The notes under the pieces are model-generated. The model saw only the letters and a program-made list of their open reading frames with translations. It was not told the DNA's origin and searched no databases. Positions 19,697 through 35,800 of a DNA stretch of 64,000 bases are shown here, piece by piece. The translations under genes were made by a program, and so were the position numbers. The stretch spans positions 62,001 to 126,000 of the forward strand of contig NZ_MWQE01000006.1 in assembly GCF_002210285.1 (NCBI RefSeq). Direction: 5' to 3'. The number at the start of each line of letters is the position of its first letter. The first letter of the stretch is position 1. The DNA is from Fibrobacter sp. UWR2. Lineage in GTDB: Bacteria; Fibrobacterota; Fibrobacteria; Fibrobacterales; Fibrobacteraceae.

Positions 19697-20869
19697 TTAC
19701 TGATTGAACAGCTTGCCCGTATAGCTGTCGAACACTTTCTTCATTTCGGGGAACCATTCGTCGTCACCCTGGTTGTACGCCTGGAATCCGCTTGTCTTGC
19801 CGAATGCCCAGTAGTGCCAGCTGATGCCGTAGTTCTCTGCGGCCTTGATGACGTAGTTCGTCCACTGGGCGCGCGAGGCTTCGCTCGGGGCTTCGCTGGC
19901 GCACTTCGAACCGGAGCGCCCGATGGCGCCGAATTCGCCCATGTTGACCGGCACGCTGTGCTTGCCGTCTACGTCGGGGAAGTAGGCCTTGATGGAATCC
20001 GCGTACTGCTTGAAGTCCGATGTAACCTTGCTCAGGTCGGAACTGGAGAGCGAGGCGCCACACGGGTACATGGTTGCCGTACCTTGGTGGGTGTATTCGT
20101 ACGGGTCGTAGTAGTGGCCGCTTACGATGATGTTGCCGTCCTGGGGTAGGTTGAGCTGCTTGATGGCCCCGAACTTGGAGTATCCGTTGGCTTCGAACAT
20201 CACGGTCTTGTTCGGCGCGACTGCACGGATGGCGGTGTAGCCTGCGGTCATGATGGCGTTCACCGTAGCGGCGCTCTTGATATCGTGCGGCTCGTTCATG
20301 ATCTCGAATACGATCATGCTGTCCGGGAAGTCGTTCAGGCCGGCGGCGATGTCGAGCCACATGACGGCGAAACGCTTCAGTTCATCGTCAAAACCCTGCG
20401 GGTCCTTTTCGTAGTTCACCGCTGCCGCGTTCAGCCCGACATGGTGATGGCAGTTGATGATGACAGGCATGCCGAGACTTATGGCGAGGGCTACGTCTTC
20501 ATGGACGCCGGCGAGGCGGTCTGTATCGATGTGCCCTTCGATATCGGCGTCGTTTTCCCAGCGCACGGGGATACGTACGGAGTTGAAGCCCGCAGCCTTA
20601 ACAATCTTGAGATCTTCGTCGCGCAGGCAGTTGCCCCACCCGCAGTCACCGTTGCCTCCGGTACCCACGGATTCCCAGGAGTTGCCCATGTTGATGCCGC
20701 GTCCGAGCCTCTTGTTCATGGCGCGTCCGAGCGAGTAGTCAACCTTGACGCGGTTGAGCCCCGGTTCGTCTTCGGGCGTAGTGGCCCTGGCGAGACCCTT
20801 GTTGCCGGAGTCGCAACTTACGAGGAGTACGGCGGCGGCGCAAATGGCGATGTTTTTCAATAAGTGCAT
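19697..20869 (-). CDS. GH5 family glycoside hydrolase, lipoprotein (endoglucanase-like)
   Basis: 390 residues. Lipobox LVSC with Cys19, then a GH5 barrel from about residue 40: RGINMGNSWES, VRIPVRW, INCHHH, the acid/base Glu193 in I-M-N-E-P-H, HYYDPYEYTHQG, and the nucleophile Glu312 in NMGEFGAIG. All catalytic elements of a retaining beta-glycanase are present; by the sequence around them a beta-1,4-glucanase is most likely, though a mannanase or xyloglucanase cannot be excluded. Anchored to the membrane by lipid, probably facing outward. AGGA precedes the ATG. Convergent with lpxA, 15 bp from its stop. Confidence 0.9.
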   Translation of the reverse strand: MHLLKNIAICAAAVLLVSCDSGNKGLARATTPEDEPGLNRVKVDYSLGRAMNKRLGRGINMGNSWESVGTGGNGDCGWGNCLRDEDLKIVKAAGFNSVRIPVRWENDADIEGHIDTDRLAGVHEDVALAISLGMPVIINCHHHVGLNAAAVNYEKDPQGFDDELKRFAVMWLDIAAGLNDFPDSMIVFEIMNEPHDIKSAATVNAIMTAGYTAIRAVAPNKTVMFEANGYSKFGAIKQLNLPQDGNIIVSGHYYDPYEYTHQGTATMYPCGASLSSSDLSKVTSDFKQYADSIKAYFPDVDGKHSVPVNMGEFGAIGRSGSKCASEAPSEASRAQWTNYVIKAAENYGISWHYWAFGKTSGFQAYNQGDDEWFPEMKKVFDSYTGKLFNQ

Positions 20870-21119: not shown

Positions 21120-21857
21120 ATGAAATCACATCTGCAGACCATCATCTGGAAGTGCGCCGTGGGCTCACTCCTTCTTGCGTCTTTCTCCTTTGCTAGTTTC
21201 AGCGATTATAGGGATAGGGACAATTCCCGCTTCGTCACGCGCGAAGCCAAGCCTTTCCGCCCGGATAAGGACGTGGTGAGCGTCGTTATGCGCGAAGCCA
21301 TCCCGCGTGGTGGTGGATACACCTACCAGTACCCGCGCGAGAACCCCGAACCGATTCTCACGGACAAGTATGCCATGGAAGGCGCCCTTTCCATGGAAAT
21401 TGAGCTTATTGCAAGCGACTACTCCGGTGTGGCTATCTGTATCGCCGGTTCTGTCGACCTGACGCCCTATTTCGAGGAAGGTGTCCTCGAGTTCTGGATC
21501 AAGGGCGAAAAGGGTGGCGAGAACGCCCTGTTCGTGCTCGTTGACGATGGCGTGAAGAGCAACGGCGAATCCCTCCAGGTGAAGCTGCGCTCCAAGAGCC
21601 TTGGTGAAATTACCACTGAATGGAAGCATTTCAGCATTCCTCTCAAGCTGTTCGGCAAGACCGGCGTGTACTGGGATGCGAAGAACACCCGCGAAGTCAT
21701 GCTCCCGTTTGCCTGGGAAAACTTCAAGGGTTTCCGTCTTGAAGTCCGCAAGGACGAAAACGAGTCCTTCAAGGTCTGGATTGACGATATTGTGATCAAG
21801 AAGCACGGCAAGCCTTACGAAGGGCCGGCCAACTACCCGTTCCGCAACGCGATTTAA
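21120..21857 (+). CDS. exported jelly-roll (CBM11-like) protein, first gene of the barrel operon
   Basis: 245 residues from ATG 21120, with GGAG upstream and a signal peptide (about 1-27, WKCAVGSLLLASFSFAS). The mature part looks like one carbohydrate-binding-type jelly roll: a strand-rich stretch 'GVLEFWIKG', 'W..FSIPL' and a final 'WIDDIVIKK', the usual close of CBM11/CIA30-like folds. No catalytic motif. It heads a run of six genes with gaps of 0-18 bp, so it is likely part of the same surface complex as the barrels. A binding role for glucans is inference; the fold assignment is moderate. Confidence 0.7.
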   Translation: MKSHLQTIIWKCAVGSLLLASFSFASFSDYRDRDNSRFVTREAKPFRPDKDVVSVVMREAIPRGGGYTYQYPRENPEPILTDKYAMEGALSMEIELIASDYSGVAICIAGSVDLTPYFEEGVLEFWIKGEKGGENALFVLVDDGVKSNGESLQVKLRSKSLGEITTEWKHFSIPLKLFGKTGVYWDAKNTREVMLPFAWENFKGFRLEVRKDENESFKVWIDDIVIKKHGKPYEGPANYPFRNAI

Positions 21858-21866
21858 GAGGTTCCC

Positions 21867-24413
21867 ATGCGTAAATTACCGATACTCTTTACGACTTTGC
21901 TTTGCACTTCCCTGGCCTTTGCTCAGGAAGAAGAAGCCGCATTAGATGCCTCCGCACCTGAAACTGAAGCGGTGGAAGAAGCCCCTGCTGCCGAACCGGC
22001 TAGCGAAGAACAGGCTGCTCCCGAAGAACCCGCTCCTGCGGAGGAGACCGTTTCTGAAGCCGCTCCGGCCGAACCGGCAGCGGAGGAAAGCGCTCCTGTG
22101 GAAGAAGCCGCTGCCGAACCGGTGGCCGAAGAACCCGCAGAAGCCCCTGCTGAAGAAGCTGCCCCGAAGAAGGAATTCGCCTCTGCCGCTCCGGTCAATA
22201 CACCGGCTCCGGTGGTCGATGCCCCTGCGACACTCGCCGCCGACAAGCAGCTCGAAGTTGCCGAAGGCAACATGGATAATATCGCCGATAACCTCGAGTC
22301 CACGCTCATGGGCAAGGACGACGCTCCTCTCGCCGTGTCCGGCTTCATGGCCTTCCGCGTCAAGGATTTCAGATACCCGAAGGCCTCTGAATACCTCGCC
22401 AGCGATAAGGCCCGTACCTCGGTCGACGCTATGTTCAAGGCGAACATCGTCGCCATGCCGAACTCCTACATGACCCTCTGGACCAACCTCACGTTCCCGT
22501 TCGACCTTACGGGTCTGTTCGTCAACAACCTGGGTACCCAGCCGACGAACGTGCCGACTTCCAACGAGCGCGTGCTGTTCGACCACTCCACCGACTACTA
22601 CTCCTCGACTATCGACGAAGAAATGAACTTCGGTATCGATATCCGTGCGGGCGTGTTCGGCGCCTATGTTACGGCCGGCGGCGTCATCTGGGCGAACTCC
22701 TCTCCGCTCACCATGTGGGAACGCGAGACCATGCCCCGCTTTGCCTGGGTGTACGAGACCTTCGAAGACGAAAAGACTGTAAGTACCTACTACAAGGAAA
22801 AGGTGTTCAAGCCGGTGAAGGAAGGCGGACGTGCCTTCTGGACCAACCGCTCCTTCGGTGGCGTGTTCGTGAGCGCCTACCAGCTCCCGTTTGACATGAC
22901 CGCTCAGGCAATGGTGTCCCAGCCGGCCGACATGGACGTCGGTACCCGTGACGGTCTGCGTATGTACGGTGGCCAGCCGGGCGAACTCGAAATGTCCGGT
23001 GACTACGATCTCCGCGGCGCCGTGTACCACGGCCGCCTTGCCAAGAACAAGATCGCCGACAACCTGAGCGTTGGCCTTAACTACATGGGCATCGTCTTCG
23101 ACGAGGCTCTCGTCTATGAAAGTGAATTCTACGGCCAGTACAACAAGCTGAGCGTCGACCCGACCATCATGAACACCCATGTGGCGTCTGTCGACTTCAG
23201 GGGTAACATTACTCCGAAGCTCTACTTGATGGCCGATGTGGCCTTGAGCATGACGGATTCCCTCAACTACTACAAGACGGGCCTTTCCAAGCACGGCTCT
23301 AGCTACGAGAAGAACTCCTACGATTCCGAATGGAGCATGCCGCAGGTCGGTGTGTACGTGAAGGCCCAGAGCAAGTACCTCGAAGGCTGGCCGATGACTC
23401 TCGAAGCCATCTTCCTCCAGAAGGACTTCTACTCTCCGTTCTCCATGAGCAACCCCTCGCGCTACGTTGCCTGGCGCAGGGATGAATTCGCCCTCAATGC
23501 GGGTTCCATGCGCTACACCCCGAACATGGCGGGTATCAACCTGAAGATCGAACCGGAATTCAACCGCGGTCACCTCGACATCCAGTACGGCCTGCATAGC
23601 CAGGTCGAGGAAGGTGCCGACGTGCTCCTCTTCAACTACCGCCTCAATGGCCGTAACCTTTGGGAATCCACGAACTCCTGGACCAAGCACAAGCCGATCT
23701 TCTGGGCAGACTCGGGTAACGCCCGCTACAACGGCTACGTGGAACGTGCCGGTGTGCTTACCCCGGGTATTGGCCTCAAGATGAACCGCCAGCAGGGTGG
23801 TCTCCGTGGTGGTACGTGGGAAATGTGGGAAACCTTCACCGCATACGAGAATGCCCAGCAGATTCAGGATAGCGTAGTCCCGACCCACACCAAGTGGTCG
23901 ACCTACCTCTCCCTCGCCGGTGGTTACGATATCGGACACTGGTTCGGCACCGACAGGAACATCGTGATGAGCGGCTACGCCTCCATCTCGGGTGTCGCCA
24001 AGTCGTTCGCCCCGATTGCCTACAGCGAATCCCAGAGCGACATGCTCCTGTGGAGCTTTTACGGTCAGCTTGAACCGGCAATCGCCATTACGCCGACCTT
24101 CCACCTCGTCGGTATCCTCGGCCTCGAGAGCTTCCGTTCTGAATACGGCTACCTCATCGACTATATCGAGAACAACATCGACAAGTCTACTGATACGAAG
24201 CCCACGCACTATGGCGATGTGAACACTATGATGTTCCGCAAGGCTCCCATCAACTACCTGGAAACGGCCCTCGGTATCGGTTTCGACTGGAACTTCGCCG
24301 ACCGTGCCGGTATTCACGTGCGTTACAAGTGGGCTACCCATTCCGACGAAACCGTGCCTGATAATGACTGGTCTGGTCATTACATCTACGCCGAAACTAA
24401 AGTATGGTTCTAA
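21867..24413 (+). CDS. large outer-membrane barrel protein 1 with Ala/Pro/Glu-rich spacer
   Basis: 848 residues. Signal peptide 1-19 (ending LAFAQ), then about 110 residues of Ala-Pro-Glu repeats (AAPEEPAPAEE type), a linker, and about 700 residues of short amphipathic strands rich in Tyr, Trp, Gly and Asn, ending ...YIYAETKVWF with the terminal Phe typical of outer-membrane barrels. The acidic Pro-rich spacer may span or bind peptidoglycan in the periplasm. I do not recognise a named family. AGAGG lies before the ATG, 9 bp after the preceding stop. Shares overall design, not obvious sequence identity, with the next two genes. Confidence 0.72.
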   Translation: MRKLPILFTTLLCTSLAFAQEEEAALDASAPETEAVEEAPAAEPASEEQAAPEEPAPAEETVSEAAPAEPAAEESAPVEEAAAEPVAEEPAEAPAEEAAPKKEFASAAPVNTPAPVVDAPATLAADKQLEVAEGNMDNIADNLESTLMGKDDAPLAVSGFMAFRVKDFRYPKASEYLASDKARTSVDAMFKANIVAMPNSYMTLWTNLTFPFDLTGLFVNNLGTQPTNVPTSNERVLFDHSTDYYSSTIDEEMNFGIDIRAGVFGAYVTAGGVIWANSSPLTMWERETMPRFAWVYETFEDEKTVSTYYKEKVFKPVKEGGRAFWTNRSFGGVFVSAYQLPFDMTAQAMVSQPADMDVGTRDGLRMYGGQPGELEMSGDYDLRGAVYHGRLAKNKIADNLSVGLNYMGIVFDEALVYESEFYGQYNKLSVDPTIMNTHVASVDFRGNITPKLYLMADVALSMTDSLNYYKTGLSKHGSSYEKNSYDSEWSMPQVGVYVKAQSKYLEGWPMTLEAIFLQKDFYSPFSMSNPSRYVAWRRDEFALNAGSMRYTPNMAGINLKIEPEFNRGHLDIQYGLHSQVEEGADVLLFNYRLNGRNLWESTNSWTKHKPIFWADSGNARYNGYVERAGVLTPGIGLKMNRQQGGLRGGTWEMWETFTAYENAQQIQDSVVPTHTKWSTYLSLAGGYDIGHWFGTDRNIVMSGYASISGVAKSFAPIAYSESQSDMLLWSFYGQLEPAIAITPTFHLVGILGLESFRSEYGYLIDYIENNIDKSTDTKPTHYGDVNTMMFRKAPINYLETALGIGFDWNFADRAGIHVRYKWATHSDETVPDNDWSGHYIYAETKVWF

Positions 24414-24431
24414 TGGAGGCGCGAGAAGAGT

Positions 24432-26711
24432 ATGAATTTTAACAAAAGTGCTTCAAAAATGATGACTAGAACTTTGAGTGTCCTTGCGCTTACCGCAGGT
24501 GTCGCTGCCGCTTCCGTGGCCGACAACAAGGACCTGATTGAAAGCAAGGTCGATTCCGCCAACGCTCACCGCGGCCTCGAGGTCACGGGTGCCATCCGCG
24601 GCGTTGCCCAGGCATCTTATTACGGCAACTCATCGTATTTCGGAACCGACGGCGATGCCTACGCCTCCCAGACGATGCCCGATGTCGAAAGGGACGAGTT
24701 CGTCAACGCGGACTTCAACTTCGGCTTCCGCCCCTGGGAAAGCGTCCGTGCGAACGCGATGCTGCGCCTCTACGCCGGCATGCAGGACTACTTCGCCTCG
24801 GCCGCCAAGATTATTGAGGTCCCCTGGATCAATGTCGAAGGCCAGATCGGCAACAACTTCCACTGGATCGTGGGTGATTTCCGCCAGCAGTACTCTCCGC
24901 TGACGTTGTTCGCCCCGGATGTCGACATCATGTACGAACCGCAGGTGTTCGCCCGCAAGCGCCACATGGCCGAAAAGCAGCAGCTCCTCGAGGGCAACCA
25001 GAGGAACCTGCAGGGTGCGAACCTCCAGTTCCGTATGGACCTGAACGACATCTTTGGCCAGGTCCGTGCCGAAGGTATCTTCGCCCGAGTGAACCGCGCC
25101 CAGGCTCTTGACCTTTCCGGTGCCGAAGGCAACATCCTTCCGAACGAAACCATTCCGGGTGCGACTCAGGCTGCCAACATGGACAAGTTCCTCATTGCCG
25201 GTAACCTGGAACTCCTCCCGCTCAGGAAGAACGCCTACCTCGCCGGTACGATGATGTACATCTTCGACAACGAGGATTCGCGAGCCTACACCTACCGCCA
25301 CTACAATGCGGACGGTGAACTGAGCCTCAACACGAAGGATCCCTACCAGATATCCGCCATCAATCCGTACGAACTCGACCCCCAGAAGACCCTCGTCCTC
25401 GCTGGCCGCGTGGGTGGCGATGTCGCAGGCATGATGAATAACAGGGGGCTCATCCTTGACGCTACGGCGGAACTCGCCATGTCGATGGACGATGTCATCA
25501 ACCGTGATTACGTCGTCACGACGGCTGACGACCCGCTCGCATTCACGCTCGACGGAATGACCTTCTATAAGAGTGTCGAAAATACGGAAACCAACAACGG
25601 CCTTGCGGTCAATGCGACCCTCAATGCCGGATACAAGACCGATTCCTGGAGCGTCAAGCTCGTCGGCGACATTATCTTCAACGATAGCGCATGGTTCAAC
25701 AACCTTGCTCAGTCGCCCAAGTTCTTTGCCCAGCGCATCCTGAATTCTGACTACGACGGCGAGACTGTCAAACACAGCGTAAAGTCTCCGCTTTACTCGA
25801 CCTTCGACGCTCTCTACAATTTCGCCCCGAAGTTCTCTCCGGCTCCCATTACCATGAGAACGGATGACAACGGCTTCAAGCAGCAGCCGTCCAGCTACAA
25901 CATTGCCCCGTACAACAAGAACTCCTGGACTGGCAACGTCTACTCCAAGGCTCAGATTGCCCTCCTCAATGCGATGGCCGATCCGAACATCCAGATGGTC
26001 CTCCCGAACGGCATGGCTTCTGCGAACCGCGAAGGTGGCCGCGCGAACCTCATCGGCAACGTGGGTGAATGGTTCGAGGCTCAGGCCCTGTTCGGCATCT
26101 ACACGCAGGTCGCCCCGCTCTACGGGTTCACCGATATCTCCTACACGGAATATGGTGCTGGCCTCAAGGCCGACATCTTCAAGGTGCTCGGGTTCTCCAA
26201 GCCTCTCGAGATTTCCGGTTCTTACAAGCATTCCGAACGTACCATGGAATTCGACCCGACGCTCCCCTTCATGGGTACCCCGGTCGACGGCAAGGCCGAG
26301 TTCAAGACGGACTTCATCAATGCCGGCCTCTACGTGCAGTACCTGCCGCGCCTTGGTGTGACTGCCGGCTTCCAGATGATCAACATGGAAATGAACGACC
26401 TCCAGCAGAAGCAGAGCGTTGCCGAATACGCCGGCATCGCAGCGACGGTCCCGATGGTCAAGGGTAAGCAGATGCAGTGGATGGTCGGCCTCGACTACAC
26501 GCTCGACAAGAGCGCCTGGCTCTCCCTGAACCTCGGCATGGTGACGGTTGAAAATACCTACAACACCGATCCGGCGCTCTATGCTGCCGATGGTGCGGTG
26601 AACTTGCCTGCCCATGCAGAGGATGTGAAGGTCGGTGGCGTCTGGCCAACGGAATTCACGAACAAGTTTACACAACTTATTGTTGAAGCCTCCATTAACG
26701 TGGAATTTTAA
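24432..26711 (+). CDS. large outer-membrane barrel protein 2
   Basis: 759 residues. Signal peptide about 1-27 (TLSVLALTAGVAAAS), then a continuous strand-rich protein with segments such as WINVEGQIGNNFHWIVGDFRQ and FAPDVDIMYEPQVFARKR, ending ASINVEF. The segment 'PLT(L/I)....V(D/E)I(M/L)(Y/Q)EP(Q/E)(V/I)FA(R/Q)' also occurs in barrel protein 3, so these two are paralogues. Predicted porin-like outer-membrane protein. Follows barrel 1 by 18 bp; GGAGG is present in the gap. Confidence 0.72.
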   Translation: MNFNKSASKMMTRTLSVLALTAGVAAASVADNKDLIESKVDSANAHRGLEVTGAIRGVAQASYYGNSSYFGTDGDAYASQTMPDVERDEFVNADFNFGFRPWESVRANAMLRLYAGMQDYFASAAKIIEVPWINVEGQIGNNFHWIVGDFRQQYSPLTLFAPDVDIMYEPQVFARKRHMAEKQQLLEGNQRNLQGANLQFRMDLNDIFGQVRAEGIFARVNRAQALDLSGAEGNILPNETIPGATQAANMDKFLIAGNLELLPLRKNAYLAGTMMYIFDNEDSRAYTYRHYNADGELSLNTKDPYQISAINPYELDPQKTLVLAGRVGGDVAGMMNNRGLILDATAELAMSMDDVINRDYVVTTADDPLAFTLDGMTFYKSVENTETNNGLAVNATLNAGYKTDSWSVKLVGDIIFNDSAWFNNLAQSPKFFAQRILNSDYDGETVKHSVKSPLYSTFDALYNFAPKFSPAPITMRTDDNGFKQQPSSYNIAPYNKNSWTGNVYSKAQIALLNAMADPNIQMVLPNGMASANREGGRANLIGNVGEWFEAQALFGIYTQVAPLYGFTDISYTEYGAGLKADIFKVLGFSKPLEISGSYKHSERTMEFDPTLPFMGTPVDGKAEFKTDFINAGLYVQYLPRLGVTAGFQMINMEMNDLQQKQSVAEYAGIAATVPMVKGKQMQWMVGLDYTLDKSAWLSLNLGMVTVENTYNTDPALYAADGAVNLPAHAEDVKVGGVWPTEFTNKFTQLIVEASINVEF

Positions 26712-26726
26712 TGGGAGGGATGAAAG

Positions 26727-28877
26727 ATGATGAATAACAAGAAGACCACGCTCATTTTTGCGACCGCTCTTATGTTCTCTGCAACGGCGGCCTTCGCTGA
26801 AGCCGATTCCTCGGTTGTCACGAAGCAGACCTCGTTCCTGCAGAAACTTGATTCCTTGAACAAGTCCATCCTGGGCCTCCGTTTGGGCGGAACCGCCAAG
26901 GCCGGCGCCCTCACCTCCATGGCGACTTCCGACCAGTTCCTTGACAATTCCGCCACTCAGGAAAACCAGGCCTTTACCGACGTGAACCTCAAGTTCCTCG
27001 CCCAGCCCTCTTCCGAGACCCGCCTCGACGTGCAGGTCCGCCTCCACAAGGATTGGCAGAGCGGCGTCGACGAGAACAACAACCCGGTTATCGGTCACTG
27101 GTTCAGCTACGATGGCAAGATCCTGAACAACCATGTCGATTTCAACTTGGGATACATGCGTGTCGGTTACACCCCGCTCACCATCAATACCCCGCAGGTT
27201 GAAATCCTCCAGGAGCCCGAGATCTTCGCTCAGAACCGAGTCGAGGCTCTGTCCTACCGCAATCTCGACACGACGTCCCGCCGACTCATGCAGGGCCTGA
27301 ATGCCGAGTTCCATAGTGGTAACGTGGGCGCCCTCGACGATATCTATGCACAGGCGACTGGTGCGCGTCTGCGCAACACCGCGAAGAAGAACGACCAGGT
27401 GTTCTTCGACTTCGACTGGGCCGACCGCTATGCCTACGGTCTCCGTACCGGTCTTAGCGCCTTCGGTGCCAATCTCGGTGCGAACTTTGTCGGTGCGCTT
27501 GACCGCCGCCTCACCACTCGCTCCCGTGACCTCGGTCTGAAGGATACCATCTTCTACGACAACAACAGCGTCCTCTCTGTTGAACTGGGATTCAACTCGA
27601 AGAAGCTCCTCCCGCATCTGCCGGTTAACTTCGGCCTCAATGGGGAATATGCGATGTCCTGGTGGGAAGTCGATGCCGAATACATGGACACTGACCCCTC
27701 CTTCGATACGCAGATCAAGGAAGCCCCCGTTCCCGATGGCGATGTCATGACGAGCATTGTGTACGTGTCTTCGACCGTGAATGCCAAGGACGCCGAAAGG
27801 ACTACGGTTGACCTGATGGACGACAAGGGCACGGCCCTGAACGTGCGCCCCTTCGTGGAAGGTTCTGTTGCCGGCGTTAACTTCAAGGTGGACGGCATGT
27901 ACCTCATGAACGATAAGGAGTTCTGGTCCGACCTCGCTTCTTCGCCGAACTACATGAACAATGGGATTATCTTCAACGCGAACGCCCTCTATGGCGATGC
28001 CGACCAGGAAGTGGCAAAGAACTTTGCCTCGGGTAACCTCGAGAACCTCTACTTCATGGTCTACAACACCGACCTCCTGACGGCCGCGACGCTCATGTCT
28101 TCCGGTACCAAGACGGTTCTTTCGGGTTCTTCCGAAGCCGTGGAACTCTACTACCGCCTGTACAACAACTACAAGCTCGCTCACTTCTACCGCAACGCTT
28201 ACGATGCCAACACGATGAAGAAGCTCGAGGCCGCCCAGGCGCTCCTCCTGATGGACCCGTCCGTGAACCTCGCCATGCCTTACGGCCTCGCGACGCCTGA
28301 CCGCAAGGGATTCGCCGCATCGATCGATGCAGATTGGAACGATGCCGTTGAAGTCAATGTCCGCTTCTCCCAGTACACTGCCGAAGCTTCCGACAACAAG
28401 TACACGACAATCGGTGCCGGCCTCGGCGTCGACGTCGGCCGCCTTGTTCCGTCGCTTGACCGCAAGATCAAGGTTTCCGGCTCCTTCGAGAAGGCTACCG
28501 AGGATTCCTACCTGCAGCGCTCTTCGCAGCGAATCGTAGGTGGCTTCTCTGCCGATATCTGGGGCCCGATTGCTTTGGAATTCGGTGCCCAGATGCTTAA
28601 CAAGAAGTTCGAGGGCAACGTGTTCGGTATCGCGGGTCTCCCTGTCGGGATGTCCTTCATCCAGAAGGTTGACGAAATGCTCATCCTTGCTGGTCCGCGC
28701 GTCCGCATCGCTCCGGAATCCTACATCACTGTCCGCTACGGCATGCTGAAGAACACCGTGGGCTACAAGACCCCGAACGCTGCCGCAGCCCTGGATGCTA
28801 CCTTACCCCCGTACGTGGATAAAGAACTCTCTGTCGACAAGAACATTATCTCCGCCGATGTGACGGTTAATTTCTAG
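26727..28877 (+). CDS. large outer-membrane barrel protein 3
   Basis: 716 residues. Signal peptide about 1-25 (IFATALMFSATAAFAE), then a strand-rich barrel-like body ending SADVTVNF. It shares with barrel 2 the motif around residues 150-168 (PLTINTPQVEILQEPEIFAQ), a 'LxxAxxLLxMDPSVxLAMPYGLATPDR'-like helix, and the end 'KNxxSADVTVNF/EASINVEF', so duplication of one ancestral gene is likely. GGGAGGG sits before tandem ATG codons. A predicted outer-membrane protein without a recognised family. Confidence 0.72.
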   Translation: MMNNKKTTLIFATALMFSATAAFAEADSSVVTKQTSFLQKLDSLNKSILGLRLGGTAKAGALTSMATSDQFLDNSATQENQAFTDVNLKFLAQPSSETRLDVQVRLHKDWQSGVDENNNPVIGHWFSYDGKILNNHVDFNLGYMRVGYTPLTINTPQVEILQEPEIFAQNRVEALSYRNLDTTSRRLMQGLNAEFHSGNVGALDDIYAQATGARLRNTAKKNDQVFFDFDWADRYAYGLRTGLSAFGANLGANFVGALDRRLTTRSRDLGLKDTIFYDNNSVLSVELGFNSKKLLPHLPVNFGLNGEYAMSWWEVDAEYMDTDPSFDTQIKEAPVPDGDVMTSIVYVSSTVNAKDAERTTVDLMDDKGTALNVRPFVEGSVAGVNFKVDGMYLMNDKEFWSDLASSPNYMNNGIIFNANALYGDADQEVAKNFASGNLENLYFMVYNTDLLTAATLMSSGTKTVLSGSSEAVELYYRLYNNYKLAHFYRNAYDANTMKKLEAAQALLLMDPSVNLAMPYGLATPDRKGFAASIDADWNDAVEVNVRFSQYTAEASDNKYTTIGAGLGVDVGRLVPSLDRKIKVSGSFEKATEDSYLQRSSQRIVGGFSADIWGPIALEFGAQMLNKKFEGNVFGIAGLPVGMSFIQKVDEMLILAGPRVRIAPESYITVRYGMLKNTVGYKTPNAAAALDATLPPYVDKELSVDKNIISADVTVNF

Positions 28878-28888
28878 TGAGGTCGAAA

Positions 28889-29665
28889 ATGAAGAATATA
28901 AAGATTTCTCTTCTTGCTGCCGGCGCTACCATCGCGCTCCTGGCTTGCTCCTCCTTGGAAGTCAGCAATCCGGAATCCGAGAACTACCCGGAAGGCTGGT
29001 CTACTGCTGAATACATAAGCATTAACCCCGACCTCCGTGCACTCCAGATTGCGGACCAGGTCAACATCATGAACACCCTTTCCGGTGCGGCGTCTGACGA
29101 AGCCGACTTTACGGCCGATACCGTGCTGATGACGAAGATTGCGCTTGAGTATGCAGCCTTCACCGAGAAGAATCTCGACTTTAGCGACAAGTCGAAGATG
29201 AAGTACCTCAAGCAGTTCAATATCAATGGCGTGAGCAACGAGCCTGCCGTGTTCGACACGCTCACCCTCGACTCGTCCGTGTTCGCAAGGCAGTTCCTGG
29301 TATATGGCAAGGTCGAAGGCCGTCCGTACCGCAAGTGCAAGGACAGCGAGAGCAACCTCGTTAAGAAGGGCTCCTGCCAGTCCGACGAGGCTAATGCGAA
29401 TATCGGCTATATGGCGCACCTCTACTGCTCCAATGCCGGTGTCACGTACTGCATCGACTGCGCCGTTACGGATGAATGCCCCGAAGTCATTATCGACGAG
29501 CCGGAAAGCTCTAGCTCCGAGGCCGCTCCGGAATCTTCCGAGACGGCGGGTGAAGGCGATTCTAGCTCCAGCGAGGGCGCCGAACCCGAATCTAGCGAAG
29601 CTACTGCCGACAGCTCGAGCAGCGAAGCGGCTGGCGATGAAAGTTCAAGTTCTGTTGCTGAATAA
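28889..29665 (+). CDS. lipoprotein with serine-rich tail
   Basis: 258 residues from ATG 28889, which has GAGG 6 bases upstream; an in-frame GTG at 28877 overlapping the previous stop is a weaker start. Lipobox LLAC. The body (about 25-205) has four to six Cys in the second half, with no family I recognise. The last 55 residues are a Glu/Ser/Ala low-complexity tail with repeated SSSS blocks, as in linkers of Fibrobacter surface proteins but here at the C-terminus. Placed between the barrels and the GH18-like gene, it may be the lipid-anchored part of the same complex. Confidence 0.7.
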   Translation: MKNIKISLLAAGATIALLACSSLEVSNPESENYPEGWSTAEYISINPDLRALQIADQVNIMNTLSGAASDEADFTADTVLMTKIALEYAAFTEKNLDFSDKSKMKYLKQFNINGVSNEPAVFDTLTLDSSVFARQFLVYGKVEGRPYRKCKDSESNLVKKGSCQSDEANANIGYMAHLYCSNAGVTYCIDCAVTDECPEVIIDEPESSSSEAAPESSETAGEGDSSSSEGAEPESSEATADSSSSEAAGDESSSSVAE

Positions 29666-29679
29666 AAGGTGGGATTACT

Positions 29680-30735
29680 ATGAAACTCAAACTTTTTGTA
29701 ACGACTCTTGCGGTTGCCTGCGTGGCGATGTCCCAGGCTGCAGCCGACAAGGTGATTGGCTATTTCCCCTACTGGAGCCAGTATTCCCAGTTCTACCCGA
29801 AGGATATCCGCTATAACACGGTTACCCACATTCACTATTCTTCGCTCATGCCTGCCGAAGACGGCTCGCTCGCTTTCCCCGACGAAAACGACGCTCCTAA
29901 CTACGACTCGCTCGCGGCCATGTGCGCTGCTAACAACGTGCAGCTCGTGGTCTCCGTGGGTGGCATGGAAGCCGAAGGCAACCTGAAGGCTATCGCCGGT
30001 TCCGACGAAACGCTTGCTGCCTTTGTCAACAACCTCAAGACTTGGGTTGGCGAACACAATGCCAAGGGCATTGAACTCGACTGGCAGAACATGGCGGCTG
30101 AAGATGCCGAAGGCTATGCCAAGATGGTGAATGCCCTTACGGATGCCTTCTCTGGCTCCATTGTGGCTTCTACCATGTACCCCTTCGTCGCGATGGAACC
30201 GTACACCGCCGAAGTGATGAACAAGCTCTCCTACATCAACGTGTTTATCCCTGACCAGATGAACGAAGACAACTCTACGCTCGTTCCGAACCAGGGCGGC
30301 AAGATTATTGCCGAAACGCTCGATAAGGCTGCAGGCGCAGGCATCCAGAAGGATCTCCTGGTGCCGGTGGTCTACTTCTACGGCAAGTCCTTCCTCGGTG
30401 CGACCGGCTTCGGCTCTTCTCACCAAGGTGTGGGCAGCGGTAACGAAGGTTACCTCCCGTACAAGGAACTCATGAGCAAGTTCGATACTCCGGACTACAA
30501 GGTGACCTTCGATTCCGAATCGCAGTCTGAACTTGCTGTGAGCAAGGAAGAGGCGATTGTGTTCATGGGCATTCCTTCCGTGAAGGCTGTGGCCGAGAAC
30601 GTGAAGAACAACGGCTTTGCCGGTGTGGCGGTCTACGACGTGTCGCAGGACCATCACGAACCCATTGTCTCCGTGCTCGTGACCATCGGTTTGGAACTCC
30701 GCCCCGGTGTGAACTACAAGACCGCGAAGAAGTAA
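29680..30735 (+). CDS. secreted GH18-fold protein, probably inactive chitinase-like lectin
   Basis: 351 residues. Signal peptide about 1-22 (VACVAMSQAAAD), then a GH18 barrel: KVIGYFPYWSQYSQFYP, THIHYSSLMP, VVSVGG, then the active-site strand reads KGIELDWQN (129-137). Compared with the GH18 motif D-G-x-D-x-D-x-E, the first Asp is Lys129, the second is Glu132 and the catalytic Glu is Gln136; only Asp134 of the triad is kept. The later segments VPVVYFYGK and GFAGVAVYDVSQD keep the fold. Loss of the proton donor is seen in chitinase-like lectins such as concanavalin B, so binding rather than hydrolysis is expected. AGGTGG precedes the ATG; last gene of the barrel operon. Confidence 0.85.
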   Translation: MKLKLFVTTLAVACVAMSQAAADKVIGYFPYWSQYSQFYPKDIRYNTVTHIHYSSLMPAEDGSLAFPDENDAPNYDSLAAMCAANNVQLVVSVGGMEAEGNLKAIAGSDETLAAFVNNLKTWVGEHNAKGIELDWQNMAAEDAEGYAKMVNALTDAFSGSIVASTMYPFVAMEPYTAEVMNKLSYINVFIPDQMNEDNSTLVPNQGGKIIAETLDKAAGAGIQKDLLVPVVYFYGKSFLGATGFGSSHQGVGSGNEGYLPYKELMSKFDTPDYKVTFDSESQSELAVSKEEAIVFMGIPSVKAVAENVKNNGFAGVAVYDVSQDHHEPIVSVLVTIGLELRPGVNYKTAKK

Positions 30736-30759
30736 TCCTTACGTAGGTGATGAATTTAG

Positions 30760-30787
30760 GAAGGCGCCCAATGGGCGCCTTCTTTTT
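30760..30787 (+). terminator. terminator of the barrel operon
   Basis: Perfect 10-bp stem GAAGGCGCCC / GGGCGCCTTC with a 3-base loop and TTTTT. It ends the six-gene run that starts at 21120. Confidence 0.9.
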
Positions 30788-30823
30788 ACGTCATGGCGGG
30801 CTTGACCCGCCATCTCCTTGCAT
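30788..30823. repeat. palindromic repeat (CGTCATGGCGGG type), copy R1
   Basis: CGTCATGGCGGG-CTTGA-CCCGCCATCTCC: an 8-bp perfect stem (30793-30800 with 30806-30813) flanked by CGTC and CTCC. Related copies at 31121, 46480, 56152 and 60134 keep the flanks and loop type but change the stem on both arms. Confidence 0.7.
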
Positions 30824-30848
30824 AATTATGTAAGTGAGACCACGGTAA

Positions 30849-30904
30849 CGTCATGGCGGACCTGATCGCAATAGCCACTTGCAGTTCTACTGCTTAGTGG
30901 CTAT
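30849..30904. repeat. half palindromic repeat R2 fused to another inverted repeat
   Basis: Starts like the other repeats (CGTCATGGCGGA) but the second arm is missing. It runs into a separate inverted repeat with 9-bp arms ATAGCCACT (30871-30879) and AGTGGCTAT (30896-30904). Looks like a truncated or recombined element. Confidence 0.5.
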
Positions 30905-30928
30905 GATCCTCGGCAACGGGGACGCCAT

Positions 30929-31063
30929 CTATAAAGAAGAAATCGGAAGGTTGCCTATGGGGTTGCCTTCCTCGAGTTTCTTGAACAAATCGGCGGTTAC
31001 GCCAATGTACATTACTTTGCCGTTATTGTTTGTTAAGATGTATGTGTAGCTTTTGTTCTGCAT
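30929..31063 (-). pseudogene. remnant of a small GIY-YIG endonuclease
   Basis: A 44-codon reading frame starting MQNKSYTYILTNNNGKVMYI and continuing GVTADLFKKLEEGNP before a stop. The first 30 residues match the start of the small single-domain GIY-YIG family (COG2827 type: Y-x-Y-I-L-T-N-x-x-G-x-(V/L)-(M/L)-Y-I-G-V-T-x-D-L), but the expected catalytic Arg and Glu that follow are gone, as normal members have about 80-100 residues. A GTCATA-T-TATGAC palindrome at 31101-31113 lies upstream. Palindromic repeats lie on both sides (R1/R2 and R3), suggesting a decayed mobile unit. Confidence 0.65.
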
Positions 31064-31120
31064 AGAAGTTGTTCCTGCAGTAAATCTAACATAATGGTTT
31101 GTCATATTATGACATCAGGG

Positions 31121-31149
31121 AGATGGCGGCTCGTGGGCCGCCATGACGT
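31121..31149. repeat. palindromic repeat R3, inverted relative to R1
   Basis: AGATGGCGGC-TCGTGG-GCCGCCATGACGT: 8-bp stem at 31123-31130 with 31137-31144. Read on the minus strand it gives ACGTCATGGCGGC...GCCGCCATCT, the same element as R1 in the opposite direction, about 330 bp away. Confidence 0.7.
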
Positions 31150-31154
31150 AAACG

Positions 31155-31184
31155 AAAAAAATCCCCGGACGATTGTCCGGGGAT
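31155..31184 (-). terminator. terminator of the secreted GH5 gene
   Basis: On the minus strand, a 10-bp stem ATCCCCGGAC / GTCCGGGGAT with a 4-base loop followed by a run of T. Lies 26 bp past the stop of the GH5 gene. Confidence 0.9.
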
Positions 31185-31209: not shown

Positions 31210-33399
31210 TTACTTGACCTTGATGCTTACGCTCTGGATCTTGCTTCCCTGCTTCACGCGGACAATGTACTTGCCTGCGCTGAGTTCCGACATCGGGATC
31301 CAGTTGCTGCCTGCGCCGAGTTCCGATTGCATGCTCTTCGCAATCTGGCCGAGGGTCGTAATCACCTGGATGGAAGCCTTGCCGCTCTGGCTGGTGGTCA
31401 GGAGCAGCCCGCCGTTCACGAACTTGGCGCTGAATACGTTCTGCGGCTTCTGGAGCATGATCGGCGTGCCGTTGCCGCTACCGATGGTGATAATAATCGT
31501 GGAGTCGATGCCTGCCCATTCATCCGTTTCCTGGGTCGTAGCCCTGATGGTCACGGTGGCGTCCACATCGCCGGCGCAGAGGAATCCGTTGAAGTTGATG
31601 GCGTATGGAGAGACCTCGGCACCGTCAAAGGTGTAGGTGATCGGGGACTTCGCCATAGGAGTCTGTTCGATGAACACGTTCTCGGTGCTAGAACCCTTCT
31701 CGACGGTCATCGACCTGAAGTTCTTGCCCAGTTCGTCCATCATCTTGCCGTATTCGACGGTGATGGTGTCGCTCATGGCGATGTAGCCGGTCGTTGCCGG
31801 TGCGGTCGCTACGATTTTTGCGGTGCCGATTGTACCGGTAAACTGGTACATGTAAACGGTAGCTCCATCAGCCTTGCCGAAGCATGCCGCGGAGTTAGAG
31901 CACTTGGCCTTCTTGATCTTGACGATTTCGGGGTTGAGCGATGTGACCGTGATGGTCGAACCCTGGTCCGTCTGACCAGTTGCAGATACGATAACTTCGT
32001 CCTTGGTGCCGTCCTTGTCCAGGTCTCTCATGCTCTTGCTCTTGGTGCAGGAGCCGCCGATGAAGCACTTGAAGTCTTCGAAGTCGCTGATAGTCTGTCT
32101 CGGTTCGGCGGTCACGGTGATGATGGACTGGGAACCGTCGTTGCCGGTCATGATGACAAAACCCGGGTTCTTGACGGCGCCTGCAGAGGTCACGACGGTT
32201 TCGTCGCTGGAGGTGTAGGTACAGCCGGACTTGAATGCGCTAGAGGCACTGCCTGCGGTTTCCTTGACGGTAGTCGGAGTGAAGGAGCAACTGCCGCTCT
32301 TAAGTGTCGCGGTGAATTGGCTTGTCCAGTCCGTGGCGTTCTTGGTGAGGTAGCTCTTTACAAAGTTGCCCGAAGCAGTGTAGCTTGCGCTAGCGAGCTC
32401 GGACTGCTTGGTGAGGGCCTTGTCGCCGGAGAACAAGGCGGAGCCTTCATCGGAAGCGTTTCCAATCTTGGTCACCTTTTGGCGGAGGCTCCAGTTGCAG
32501 TTGCTAATCTTGTTGCTTTCCATGAAGCTCGTCCATTCGGAGGACGGACCCGTTTGGGCATCGCTCTTACCGTCGGCGGTAGTGGTACCCCATTCGGTAA
32601 TGAATACGGCGTTGCCGCTATTCTTTGCGCTAGTGATTTTAGAACCAAATTGACCGACCGTATGTGTTCCTGCATAGAAGTGGAATACGTAACCAACGTT
32701 TGTTCCGCTTACACCACCATATTGGTCGAGCTGAGACCAGCTAGGTGTGCCGACTAGTACCAGGTTTTGGGACTTTGCGCGAATTCCTGAAATAACGGCG
32801 TTAGCATAGTTCTTAATACTGCCCCAGTCCTGGCCTTGACGGGGTTCGTTAAACACTTCCCAGATGATGTTGGGGACGTTTGCATATTTTGCAGCCATTT
32901 CTGTAAAGAACGGCTTTGCGAGGTCTTGTTCGTAGTCGGCTCTATGACTGTGCCAGTCGATGATGATATAGATGTCGTTTTCAATGGCGGCTTCCACCAT
33001 GATGTCGATCTTGCTCTTCTGCGTGTCAGGGTTACCCTTATAGGAGTAGCCTGCATCGAGCTTGTTGCTTGTACCGCCATCGCTGTCGTAATATTCGATA
33101 CCCATGGCGTAGCGGAACACGTCGATCTTCAGGTTGTCGACGGCCCACTTAATCACTTCCTTGTTGTAGTACTGAATGCCGGTAGCATCGGACCAGAACA
33201 TGCTCATGCCGCGGATCATTGCTTCCTTGCCGCTTTTCTGGCCCACGATCTTGCCGCCGTCAGTTCCTAGGGCGCCGTGGACCTGCACGGGACCTACGCG
33301 GAGGGGTTTGGCCGTGGATGCAGCCGCATTGGCCTCCATCGCGCCCAAGAGGAGCGCGCCTGCGGCCAGTGCCTTTATCGTATTGCTAATCCTAGTCAT
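31210..33399 (-). CDS. secreted GH5 cellulase with accessory domains and C-terminal sorting module
   Basis: 729 residues from ATG 33399, which has GGAGTC 7 bases upstream. Signal peptide 1-25 (ALAAGALLLGAMEANAA), GH5 barrel about 35-315: HGALGTDGGKIV, RYAMG, IIIDWHSH, acid/base Glu185 in EVFNEPRQG, HFYAGTH, nucleophile Glu269 in FITEWGTT. This wording is that of subfamily-2-like endoglucanases. After it come Ser/Thr-rich, strand-rich regions (about 345-640) with CTYTSSDETVVTSAGA-like and Cys-pair repeats, then about 75 residues ending GKYIVRVKQGSKIQSVSIKVK-like, a type IX-like sorting tail. Predicted extracellular or cell-surface cellulase. Transcribed alone. Confidence 0.9.
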   Translation of the reverse strand: MTRISNTIKALAAGALLLGAMEANAAASTAKPLRVGPVQVHGALGTDGGKIVGQKSGKEAMIRGMSMFWSDATGIQYYNKEVIKWAVDNLKIDVFRYAMGIEYYDSDGGTSNKLDAGYSYKGNPDTQKSKIDIMVEAAIENDIYIIIDWHSHRADYEQDLAKPFFTEMAAKYANVPNIIWEVFNEPRQGQDWGSIKNYANAVISGIRAKSQNLVLVGTPSWSQLDQYGGVSGTNVGYVFHFYAGTHTVGQFGSKITSAKNSGNAVFITEWGTTTADGKSDAQTGPSSEWTSFMESNKISNCNWSLRQKVTKIGNASDEGSALFSGDKALTKQSELASASYTASGNFVKSYLTKNATDWTSQFTATLKSGSCSFTPTTVKETAGSASSAFKSGCTYTSSDETVVTSAGAVKNPGFVIMTGNDGSQSIITVTAEPRQTISDFEDFKCFIGGSCTKSKSMRDLDKDGTKDEVIVSATGQTDQGSTITVTSLNPEIVKIKKAKCSNSAACFGKADGATVYMYQFTGTIGTAKIVATAPATTGYIAMSDTITVEYGKMMDELGKNFRSMTVEKGSSTENVFIEQTPMAKSPITYTFDGAEVSPYAINFNGFLCAGDVDATVTIRATTQETDEWAGIDSTIIITIGSGNGTPIMLQKPQNVFSAKFVNGGLLLTTSQSGKASIQVITTLGQIAKSMQSELGAGSNWIPMSELSAGKYIVRVKQGSKIQSVSIKVK

Positions 33400-33781
33400 A
33401 AAAGACTCCTTTATATGCCAAAAAAAATAGATTATGTTCACCCATCCAGGCTGTAAAATATAGTTTCGTTGTTTACTTGTGTATCCGCGAAACTATTCCC
33501 GAATAAAAGATATTTATAGTTCGTAATCTTTCCTTGTAAAGATGTTTTTACAGTGATGCAGGTCGCACGGAATGGAAACCGGCGGTGGAGGTTCGGAACG
33601 GAATGTCCCTATTTTGGGGTGGAGTGGCCTGCTATTGAAAAAGTGTGACGAATCGAACTGTTTTTCGAAAAAAGTGTTTTTTTTACTTTTTGTTCTTGCT
33701 TATCGCGAAAAAAAAGATATATTTGCGTTAAACCATGTCCCCTCCGGGGGGCTTTCACAAATAAAAAAAGAGAGAGATACT
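33400..33781. other. intergenic region between secreted GH5 and the module genes
   Basis: 382 bp. The side next to 33399 carries the GH5 promoter (AT-rich, no clear boxes chosen). The side next to 33782 carries a good promoter (see 33696-33723) and a leader with a GC-rich hairpin CCCC-TCC-GGGG around 33738-33748. No gene seen in the middle. Confidence 0.5.
33696..33723 (+). promoter_or_regulatory. promoter of the first module gene
   Basis: TTGCTT at 33696-33701, a 16-base spacer and TATATT at 33718-33723; with the next two bases the box reads TATATTTG, which also fits the TAnnTTTG form known from Bacteroidota. About 50 bases of leader follow before the ATG. Confidence 0.6.
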
Positions 33782-34705
33782 ATGAACAAGAAAATTACAC
33801 TCGCTGCTCTTGCCGGCGCTGCCATGGCTTTTGCTCAGGGTCCCGTTGATCCGGAGTTCCTTTGGGACGGTGCTACTGACACCCAGGGCCAGGTGATTAC
33901 CGGCTCTACCGAAACCAAGACTTCTGGTTACTGGTACGATTACAACGATAAGAACGACGGTGGTTCTTCTGCCTTCACGTTCCCCGCCGGAATCGAAGCC
34001 AACACCTACGGTAACTTCTACGGCCCGCTCGTTGAAGCCTACTACGGTATCAAGGCTACCATCACGATGGGCGAAGGCTACGACTATCCGTATGCCGGTA
34101 TCGGCTTCAACATTTGGAGCGAAGACCAGGAAGGTGTTGACATTTCCGCATGGGGCGGCATCTGCTTGGCTTACGAATCCACCATCGGTTTCGGCATCGA
34201 ACTCGGTGTTGAAGACGAAAAGAACGTGACTGGCTACGATAACTACAAGGCTACCGTTGCTAAGTCCCCGAGCGCAACTATGGCCAACTTCGCATGGGCC
34301 AAGTTCAGCCAGGGTGAATGGGGTAAGGTCGTCTCTATCGACGACGTCCTCGCCAAGACTGCTGCCATCAAGCTGAAGTTCGAAGGCACCGCTGGTACTT
34401 CCGGTAACTTCCGTATCTGCCAGATCGGTTCTCTCAACAAGTGCACCAAGTGCGAAGCTGAACCGATCGGTGCAATCAAGTCTGTCGCAGCTGCTAGCTC
34501 CGTCAAGGCTCAGCTCTCTGGCCGCGTCCTCTCCTTCCAGGGCATCTCTTCTGCCAAGGCCGAAGTGATCAACCTCCAGGGCCAGGTCGTGAAGTCCGCC
34601 ACTGTTAGCACCTCCATGGACCTCTCCAGCCTCGACGCTGGCATCTACATGGTCCGCGTTGCTGGCAAGAACGTGAACCTCGCTCAGAAGATTGTCCTCA
34701 AGTAA
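33782..34705 (+). CDS. secreted single-module binding protein with C-terminal sorting tail
   Basis: 307 residues from ATG 33782 (GAGAGAG upstream; the frame is open further left but not coding-like). Signal peptide 1-18 (ALAGAAMAFAQ). One jelly-roll-type module (about 19-215) with the landmarks EFLWDGATDTQGQV, TSGYWYDYND, GNFYGPLVEAYYGIKA, YPYAGIGFNIWSEDQEGVD, WAKFSQGEWG and FEGTAGTSGNFRI. Then a Cys-bearing linker (CTKCE) and a sorting tail (about 240-307) ending MVRVAGKNVNLAQKIVLK. Same module occurs once in the next gene and three times in the third. Likely a cellulose or hemicellulose binder at the surface; family not certain (CBM11-like). Confidence 0.8.
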   Translation: MNKKITLAALAGAAMAFAQGPVDPEFLWDGATDTQGQVITGSTETKTSGYWYDYNDKNDGGSSAFTFPAGIEANTYGNFYGPLVEAYYGIKATITMGEGYDYPYAGIGFNIWSEDQEGVDISAWGGICLAYESTIGFGIELGVEDEKNVTGYDNYKATVAKSPSATMANFAWAKFSQGEWGKVVSIDDVLAKTAAIKLKFEGTAGTSGNFRICQIGSLNKCTKCEAEPIGAIKSVAAASSVKAQLSGRVLSFQGISSAKAEVINLQGQVVKSATVSTSMDLSSLDAGIYMVRVAGKNVNLAQKIVLK

Positions 34706-34726
34706 TCTGCTGACTGTAGAAATTCG

Positions 34727-34758
34727 ACACCCTGACCTTCGGGTCGGGGTGTTTTTTT
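34727..34758 (+). terminator. terminator after the first module gene
   Basis: 11-bp stem ACACCCTGACC / GGTCGGGGTGT (one G-T pair) with a TTCG loop, then seven T. Confidence 0.9.
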
Positions 34759-34790
34759 ATGCGAAGGAACAAGGGATTCTGTATAAGGTA

Positions 34791-34819
34791 TTGCATTTGT
34801 AAAACGATGAGTTTATATT
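34791..34819 (+). promoter_or_regulatory. promoter of the second module gene
   Basis: TTGCAT at 34791-34796, a 17-base spacer and TATATT at 34814-34819. ATG at 34859 with GGGAGG 9 bases before it. Confidence 0.65.
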
Positions 34820-34858
34820 CACGTTGAGGTGGTCCACGATTTAGGGAGGAATTCGATC

Positions 34859-35800
34859 ATGAAAAAATGGAATGTGTTTGCAGCTGTCGTTTTTACGGCC
34901 GTGAGCATCTTTGCTCAGGGTCCCGTTGATTCGAAATTCCTTTGGGATGGCGATACTGACACCCTGGGCCAGGTGATCACCGGCTCAACCGAAACCAAGA
35001 CTTCCGGTTACTGGTACGATTTCACCGATAAAGGTGATAGCGGTACCTCTGTTATTACATACCCTGCAGGAATCGAAGCCAACTCCTACGGTAACTTCTA
35101 CGGCCCGCTCGTTGAAGCCTATGGTGGCATCAAGGCTTCCATTACGATGGGCGAAGGCTACGAATATCCGTATGCCGGTATCGGCTTCAACATCTGGAGC
35201 GAAGACCAGGAAGGTGTTGACATTTCCGAGTGGGGTGGCATCTGCTTGGCTTACGAATCCACCATCAGCTTCGGCATCGAACTCGCTGTTGAAAACGAAA
35301 AGACCGTGACTGGCTACGATAACTACAAGGCTACCGTTGTCAAGTACCCGAGTAGCCCTGCTATCAACTACCCATGGTCTAAGTTCAGCCAGGGTGGCTG
35401 GGGTACTGAAGTTCCTATCGATGACGTTCTTGCCAAGACTTATGCCATCAAGCTGAAGTTCGAAGGCACCGCCGGTACTTCTGGTAATTTCCTCATTTGC
35501 CAGATTGGTTCTCTTAACCAGTGTACTAGGTGTAGGCAAATATGTTGCCTTCCTCCTGATACTTCGATTAGCGTTCCGGTCCGGGCGGCCAGTTCCGTCA
35601 AGATGTCGCTTAATGGACGCATGCTCTCTTTTGAAGGGATTGCTCTTGCGAAGGCCGAAGTGGTTGACCTGCAGGGCCGCGTCGTAAAGTCCGCTACAAT
35701 CAGCACTACCATGGATCTTGCTGGCCTCGATGCGGGAATTTACATATTGCGTGTTTCAAGTCACGGGTTTTTGCAGACAAAGAAAATTTTCCTCAAGTGA
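34859..35800 (+). CDS. secreted single-module binding protein, duplicate of the preceding gene
   Basis: 313 residues from ATG 34859 (GGGAGGAATTC upstream). Signal peptide 1-18 (FTAVSIFAQ), one module (about 19-218) nearly identical in landmarks to the gene before it (SKFLWDGDTDTLGQV, NFYGPLVEAYGGIKA, YPYAGIGFNIWSEDQEGVD), then a longer Cys-rich linker (CTRCRQICC) and the same sorting tail ending ILRVSSHGFLQTKKIFLK. Long stretches are also identical in DNA, so the duplication is recent. It has its own promoter and terminator, so expression can differ from the first copy. Confidence 0.8.
   Translation: MKKWNVFAAVVFTAVSIFAQGPVDSKFLWDGDTDTLGQVITGSTETKTSGYWYDFTDKGDSGTSVITYPAGIEANSYGNFYGPLVEAYGGIKASITMGEGYEYPYAGIGFNIWSEDQEGVDISEWGGICLAYESTISFGIELAVENEKTVTGYDNYKATVVKYPSSPAINYPWSKFSQGGWGTEVPIDDVLAKTYAIKLKFEGTAGTSGNFLICQIGSLNQCTRCRQICCLPPDTSISVPVRAASSVKMSLNGRMLSFEGIALAKAEVVDLQGRVVKSATISTTMDLAGLDAGIYILRVSSHGFLQTKKIFLK

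Follow-up and report, generated by a model that had tools for sequence, protein, structure and literature searches.

A six-gene operon conserved in Fibrobacter encodes three large predicted barrels, a CBM30 protein and a GH18 pseudoenzyme and is a candidate non-Sus system for cello-oligosaccharide uptake

How do the products of cellulose breakdown cross the outer membrane of Fibrobacter, a major rumen cellulose degrader that works without cellulosomes or secreted cellulase activity? Published work calls the cellodextrin transport mechanism unknown, and models of cellulolysis in the genus have proposed the import of chains, with the parts not named. A locus of Fibrobacter sp. UWR2 bears on this question. 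Six ORFs, all on the + strand, occupy positions 21120-30735 of the window (the whole 64,000-nucleotide stretch of DNA that was analysed), and encode an exported single-domain CBM30 protein (gene 1), three large barrels termed A, B and C (genes 2 to 4), a lipoprotein (gene 5) and an exported GH18-fold pseudoenzyme (gene 6). The intergenic gaps from gene 1 to gene 6 are 9, 18, 15, 11 and 14 bp; the short gaps of an earlier, sequence-only reading thus hold, with 18 bp replacing its upper figure of 20 bp. That reading had also described co-directional genes ending at one strong terminator, and both were seen again in the ORF coordinates and by hairpin folding. The intrinsic terminator, GGAAGGCGCCCAATGGGCGCCTTCTTTTT (about 30758..30787, + strand), has a 12-bp stem with a T tail and folds at -27.7 kcal/mol (z -6.05); it was located by reading and folding, and is absent from the output of the promoter/terminator scan. 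All six products start with a signal peptide-like segment and gene 5 also has a lipobox, in agreement with the export signals proposed for them.

A GH5 cellulase with a lipoprotein-like start is encoded divergently to the operon at 19697-20869 (- strand), and because an upstream GH5 on the opposite strand is found in 61 of the related loci, the conserved neighbourhood extends past the six genes. On the other side, at 31210-33441 (- strand) and 33572-35800 (+ strand), lie a GH5 cellulase with a type IX tail and then a tandem pair of similar secreted proteins that have such tails too. An inverted repeat (TTTTACGTCATGGCGG... / ...CCGCCATGACGTAAAC) was spotted by eye at about 30785-31155, and encloses a short GIY-YIG-like nuclease fragment on the - strand (about 30940-31065).

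The first gene (21120..21857, + strand, 245 aa) provides a link to cellulose. Its product matched CBM30 in Pfam at 4.3e-18 (66.3 bits, against a curated cut-off of 27) and the CBM30 structures 1wmx and 2c24 by phmmer, and is 34% identical to the CBM30 of Cel51A. The earlier description of this protein as exported was right, and missed its identity as CBM30. Binding of beta-1,4-glucan is reported for the CBM30 family in papers on F. succinogenes S85. The protein is the best-conserved member of the operon, with a mean pairwise identity of 83% in Fibrobacteraceae and 121 of its 245 positions at least 95% conserved among 74 sequences. Gene 5 (28889..29665, + strand, 258 aa) is the opposite extreme, a fast-evolving gene that is the least conserved of the six (32% mean pairwise identity). 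Its lipobox, LLAC-S, places the lipid-accepting cysteine at Cys20, and the C-terminus is acidic and Ser-rich. Of 68 loci, 58 showed a lipoprotein ORF in the interval from gene 4 to gene 6, and in 51 serine follows the cysteine.

Gene 6 (29680..30735, + strand, 351 aa) covers the whole GH18 profile (Pfam 8.7e-31; 108 bits, against a cut-off of 29.6). At aa 132-136 (30073..30087, + strand) the degenerate motif ELDWQ stands for DxDxE, so that the catalytic Glu is replaced by Gln. None of the operon GH18 copies has a catalytic Glu: most read ELDWQ and others ELDWI/V/L or ELDGG, and GH18s outside the operon position keep the residue. The GH18 fold without a catalytic Glu, already recognized from the letters of this one gene, is therefore a property of every operon copy. 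The best PDB sequence match of gene 6 is YKL-40 (chitinase-3-like protein 1), one of the chi-lectins, in which a GH18 fold without the catalytic Glu is likewise used for binding. Those are animal proteins with chitin or other ligands, however, their loss was independent, and the ligand reported for the protein discussed here is cellulose.

The three large proteins between these genes were expected to be outer-membrane barrels from their Phe-terminated ends, and this phenylalanine is retained in 74/74 homologues of A, 70/71 of B and 69/71 of C (C-termini VWF, VEF and VNF, respectively); the terminal WF of A is invariant among its homologues. Structures had been suggested as a check, and AlphaFold2 was run for A and B as single chains, with alignments of 52 and 57 rows. 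Barrel A (21867..24413, + strand, 848 aa; pLDDT 77.8) is predicted to consist of a signal peptide, about 100 aa rich in Ala, Glu and Pro, and a plug-less barrel of about 22-24 strands. The Ala/Glu/Pro-rich stretch (window 21927-22230) is missing in many relatives, whose protein begins near residue 114-128. Barrel B (24432..26711, + strand, 759 aa; pLDDT 83.8) is modelled as a plug-less barrel with 22 transmembrane strands. Its loop L7 (aa 418-532; 25683..26027, + strand) is a helical insertion of about 115 aa after strand 13, extracellular or luminal, and is the most conserved loop of the protein (mean top-residue frequency 0.69, versus 0.48 in the other loops). Barrel C (26727..28877, + strand, 716 aa) is a paralogue of B (BLASTP 6e-18), as the sequence-only reading had noticed, and the B/C profile matches only these two proteins in their own genome. 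A as a remote homologue of B and C was considered, and the relation is not demonstrable (hhalign 37%). In two related assemblies A appears in longer reading frames: in L041 (10001-14905) it lacks its last residues and reads in frame into B, and in G151:C15 it lies inside a 1638-aa frame; these are either natural fusions or assembly errors. Conserved acidic residues in the strands point inward far more often than outward (14 versus 2 in A, 17 versus 1 in B), a count that is partly circular and not sugar-specific because the sides were assigned by hydrophobicity. Inward acidic residues are common to many water-filled pores.

Can the barrels be assigned to a family? That none could be named from the sequence was borne out: A, B and C gave no match above the cut-offs of Pfam and NCBIfam, and profiles of A and of B/C found no sequence relative in the PDB. 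Foldseek and VIA-align returned general large-barrel matches with tied scores, among them ushers, the SusC barrel, TonB-dependent transporters, AlgE and OccK. As the Z values are tied and no particular sugar porin is resembled, we claim no specific family by fold. Chitoporin, LamB, AlgE and other channels share with A, B and C that they are large or oligosaccharide-conducting barrels that turn up as general fold matches, but they have 16-18 strands versus about 22 here, and no sequence relation to them was found. The PopA-type porins named by a paper in S85 were ruled out: the PopA radial-oligomer superfamily has a 16-strand barrel (PMC12228718), as against 22 strands in the model of B and about 22-24 in that of A, and the genes are different.

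The closest functional parallel is with the Sus systems and PULs of Bacteroidota, which also co-encode outer-membrane barrels, surface glycan-binding proteins and a lipoprotein; here the CBM30 protein, the lipoprotein and the GH18 pseudoenzyme take the place of the glycan-binding proteins. Relatives of the operon add a surface endo-glycanase and downstream catabolism, and the role that we infer, capture followed by import, is the same. The parts differ. The operon barrels have no plug and lie outside Pfam, and the deep loci that were read completely pair them with an ABC importer. At E values up to 1, Pfam and NCBIfam showed no plug family in any of the three barrels, and three plug-bearing proteins occur elsewhere in the genome. 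SusD (PF07980) is absent from the 31 genomes searched and was found in the Bacteroides control.

Absence of a plug and of a family assignment would also suit general porins that adjoin carbohydrate genes by chance, a reading whose consequences can be followed across relatives. We scanned 84,980 species, one genome per species, with the barrel A alignment. All 80 loci kept belong by name to Fibrobacter or to other Fibrobacteres/Fibrobacteria, most of them in metagenome-assembled genomes, and in 68 of the 80 genes 1, 2, 3, 4 and 6 follow in order on one strand. The order, which the sequence-only reading had proposed to look for in other genomes, is conserved throughout Fibrobacteraceae, almost all Fibrobacter genomes have the six genes side by side, and the 68 recurrences of the order in other loci are more than chance; unrelated porins were expected to have other neighbours in most relatives, and the opposite is seen. 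Among 167 Fibrobacterota genomes, barrel A is found in 145 and CBM30 in 147: both are present in 143, neither in 18, A alone in two and CBM30 alone in four (Fisher 2e-18, a p value that is too small since the genomes share ancestry). A and CBM30 are jointly missing in G046 and G077, and both are present in their congeners G045 and G076. GH9 was tried as a cellulose marker for correlation and was useless, being nearly universal in the phylum. With the family-wide gene order, the phylum-wide linkage of A, B and CBM30 and their joint absence, a chance neighbourhood of general porins is very improbable.

Outside Fibrobacteraceae the usual module is reduced to A, one barrel of the B/C family and a CBM30 protein whose length varies between about 420 and 1,070 aa; several of these proteins start lipobox-like. 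In L126 and L127 the order is SBP_bac_5-permease-permease-ATPase-ATPase-A-B-Cel51A-like-GH94, and L123 has the same arrangement with a second SBP. Among the 23 deep loci, Opp-type components adjoin A in 12 and GH94 in six; in L110 a sugar ABC of the CUT1 type lies upstream. The long, Cel51A-like form comprises two CBM30s, a CBM11 and a GH51-like part, in that order, and its full length shows 40-46% identity to the Cel51A of Fibrobacter sp. UWR2. Cel51A of F. succinogenes (endoglucanase F, Fisuc_3111; CBM30-CBM30-CBM11-GH51) has its CBM30 in common with gene 1, and its homologue in deep lineages follows A and B as third gene; in Fibrobacter, by contrast, its gene lies outside the operon, which retains only the stand-alone CBM30. 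In L129 and L130 the CBM30/CBM11 protein that follows A and a B/C-family barrel is without the GH51 part, so the constant element is the binding part and not catalysis. The deep-locus neighbours are the parts that a pathway of cello-oligosaccharide uptake requires. Linkage to an importer and to cello-oligosaccharide catabolism is a feature of the deep relatives and only occasional in Fibrobacteraceae, where ABC genes are mostly not adjacent to the operon; L045, L049 and L053 have Opp-type genes no more than about 10 kb away from it.

The same loci bear on whether the barrels might serve secretion or display, that is, export or hold the CBM30 protein or Cel51A, which have a signal peptide but lack a type IX sorting domain. 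Throughout the phylum A and B are accompanied by CBM30, however variable the remainder of that protein is; Cel51A is listed in S85 without a type IX signal, and pilus ushers are among the top fold matches, with Z near that of other barrels. These usher-like matches tie with transporters and porins, however, and the lipobox-like starts of several deep CBM30 proteins would supply a surface route of their own. Uptake is preferred because ABC and GH94 neighbours are not what one would expect of a secretion system, and we regard secretion or display as quite unlikely.

Loci of another lineage hint at the origin of the pseudoenzyme. In a midpoint-rooted tree of 24 GH18s all 15 operon copies form one clade (support 100/99), and its sister is a divergent GH18 adjoining CBM30 in L104 and L105 (91/86). 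There, CBM30-A-B-C lies beside GH18s with an intact DxDWE, and in L105 also beside GH20. In L106, A-B-C lies beside active GH18s; that contig begins inside A and carries no CBM30. By their gene content, these three loci are a probable chitin-directed version. Since the L105 barrels adjoin GH20 and active GH18s, the neighbours seem to vary with the likely substrate; L105 and L110 are contigs of one isolate, RYN_349, which carries a chitin-type and a Cel51A-type copy. The simplest reading of the tree is a single catalytic loss in a chitinase-type partner that was afterwards kept for binding, and its ligand would then have switched from that of its chitin-type origin.

The cellulose link, and orthologues in F. 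succinogenes S85, had been missed in the sequence-only reading, whose link to a glycan is supported. Judged only by numbering, size and annotation, the operon corresponds in S85 to Fisuc_1525/FSU_2007 (CBM30) through Fisuc_1530/FSU_2012 (GH18), downstream of the GH5 Fisuc_1523. In papers on S85, the GH18 protein appears in a table as a binder of cellulose (cellulose-binding protein 1, an entry that follows Mitsumori 1996); its expression is high and stable, its abundance in the extracellular medium is about 6-fold that in the outer membrane, and its envelope level is 1.3-fold lower on cellulose, which therefore indicates no cellulose induction. The CBM30 protein was present in the envelope on all substrates, glucose and cellulose included, and is listed as unique to the extracellular medium in the comparison with the outer membrane. 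Extracellular recovery and an uninduced GH18 do not fit well with a simple stable outer-membrane complex. In the open literature searched we found no mention of the S85 barrel locus tags and no description of the six-gene set as such: the CBM30 protein and the GH18 are known singly.

Two of the six products being cellulose-binding or CBM30 proteins in S85, the barrels might instead anchor these two proteins as a platform for fibre attachment, with no transport. Adherence is essential to cellulose degradation in F. succinogenes, and the GH18 is predicted to be non-catalytic in every operon copy. Yet anchoring needs fewer than three barrels, and the ABC importer and GH94 linkage in relatives is what an uptake system predicts; for this linkage uptake is preferred, and adhesion alone is unlikely. 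Several observations count against uptake as well: the presence of much of the CBM30 protein and the GH18 in the extracellular medium of S85, the GH18 level that cellulose does not raise, the lack of likeness to a specific sugar porin, the rarity of adjacent ABC genes in Fibrobacteraceae and the fact that no energy source is evident.

On balance, we think it fairly likely that the operon encodes an outer-membrane system, specific to Fibrobacterota and unlike Sus in its parts, for capturing and importing cello-oligosaccharides or chain ends. The Sus-like role without Sus parts that had been proposed earlier stands as far as a glycan system is concerned, given the synteny, the lack of SusD and of a plug, and the ABC/GH94 linkage; assembly into one complex, with whatever oligomeric state, sugar passage through the barrels, the energy source and the length of the glucan imported are what we infer. 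The CBM30 protein and the GH18 pseudoenzyme would hold cellulose chains or cello-oligosaccharides on the cell surface, the lipoprotein may anchor or organise these two, and the plug-less barrels A, B and C would let the glucan, as oligosaccharides or chain ends, through the outer membrane; cellulases in the periplasm, an Opp-type ABC importer and GH94 phosphorylases would then take over. More speculative, and doubtful at present, is a phylum-specific mechanism in which cellulose chains or long cellodextrins are drawn through the outer membrane for periplasmic digestion by several plug-less 22-strand barrels acting together with CBM30 and a catalytically dead GH18 lectin.

The gene set is single-copy and conserved over most of the phylum, and gene 6 of this putative transport locus clearly illustrates how a chitinase-type fold has become a binding protein. 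The operon is probably the entry point for cellulose pieces in Fibrobacter, and with this concrete set of genes the question of how these bacteria bring cellulose products across the outer membrane becomes testable.
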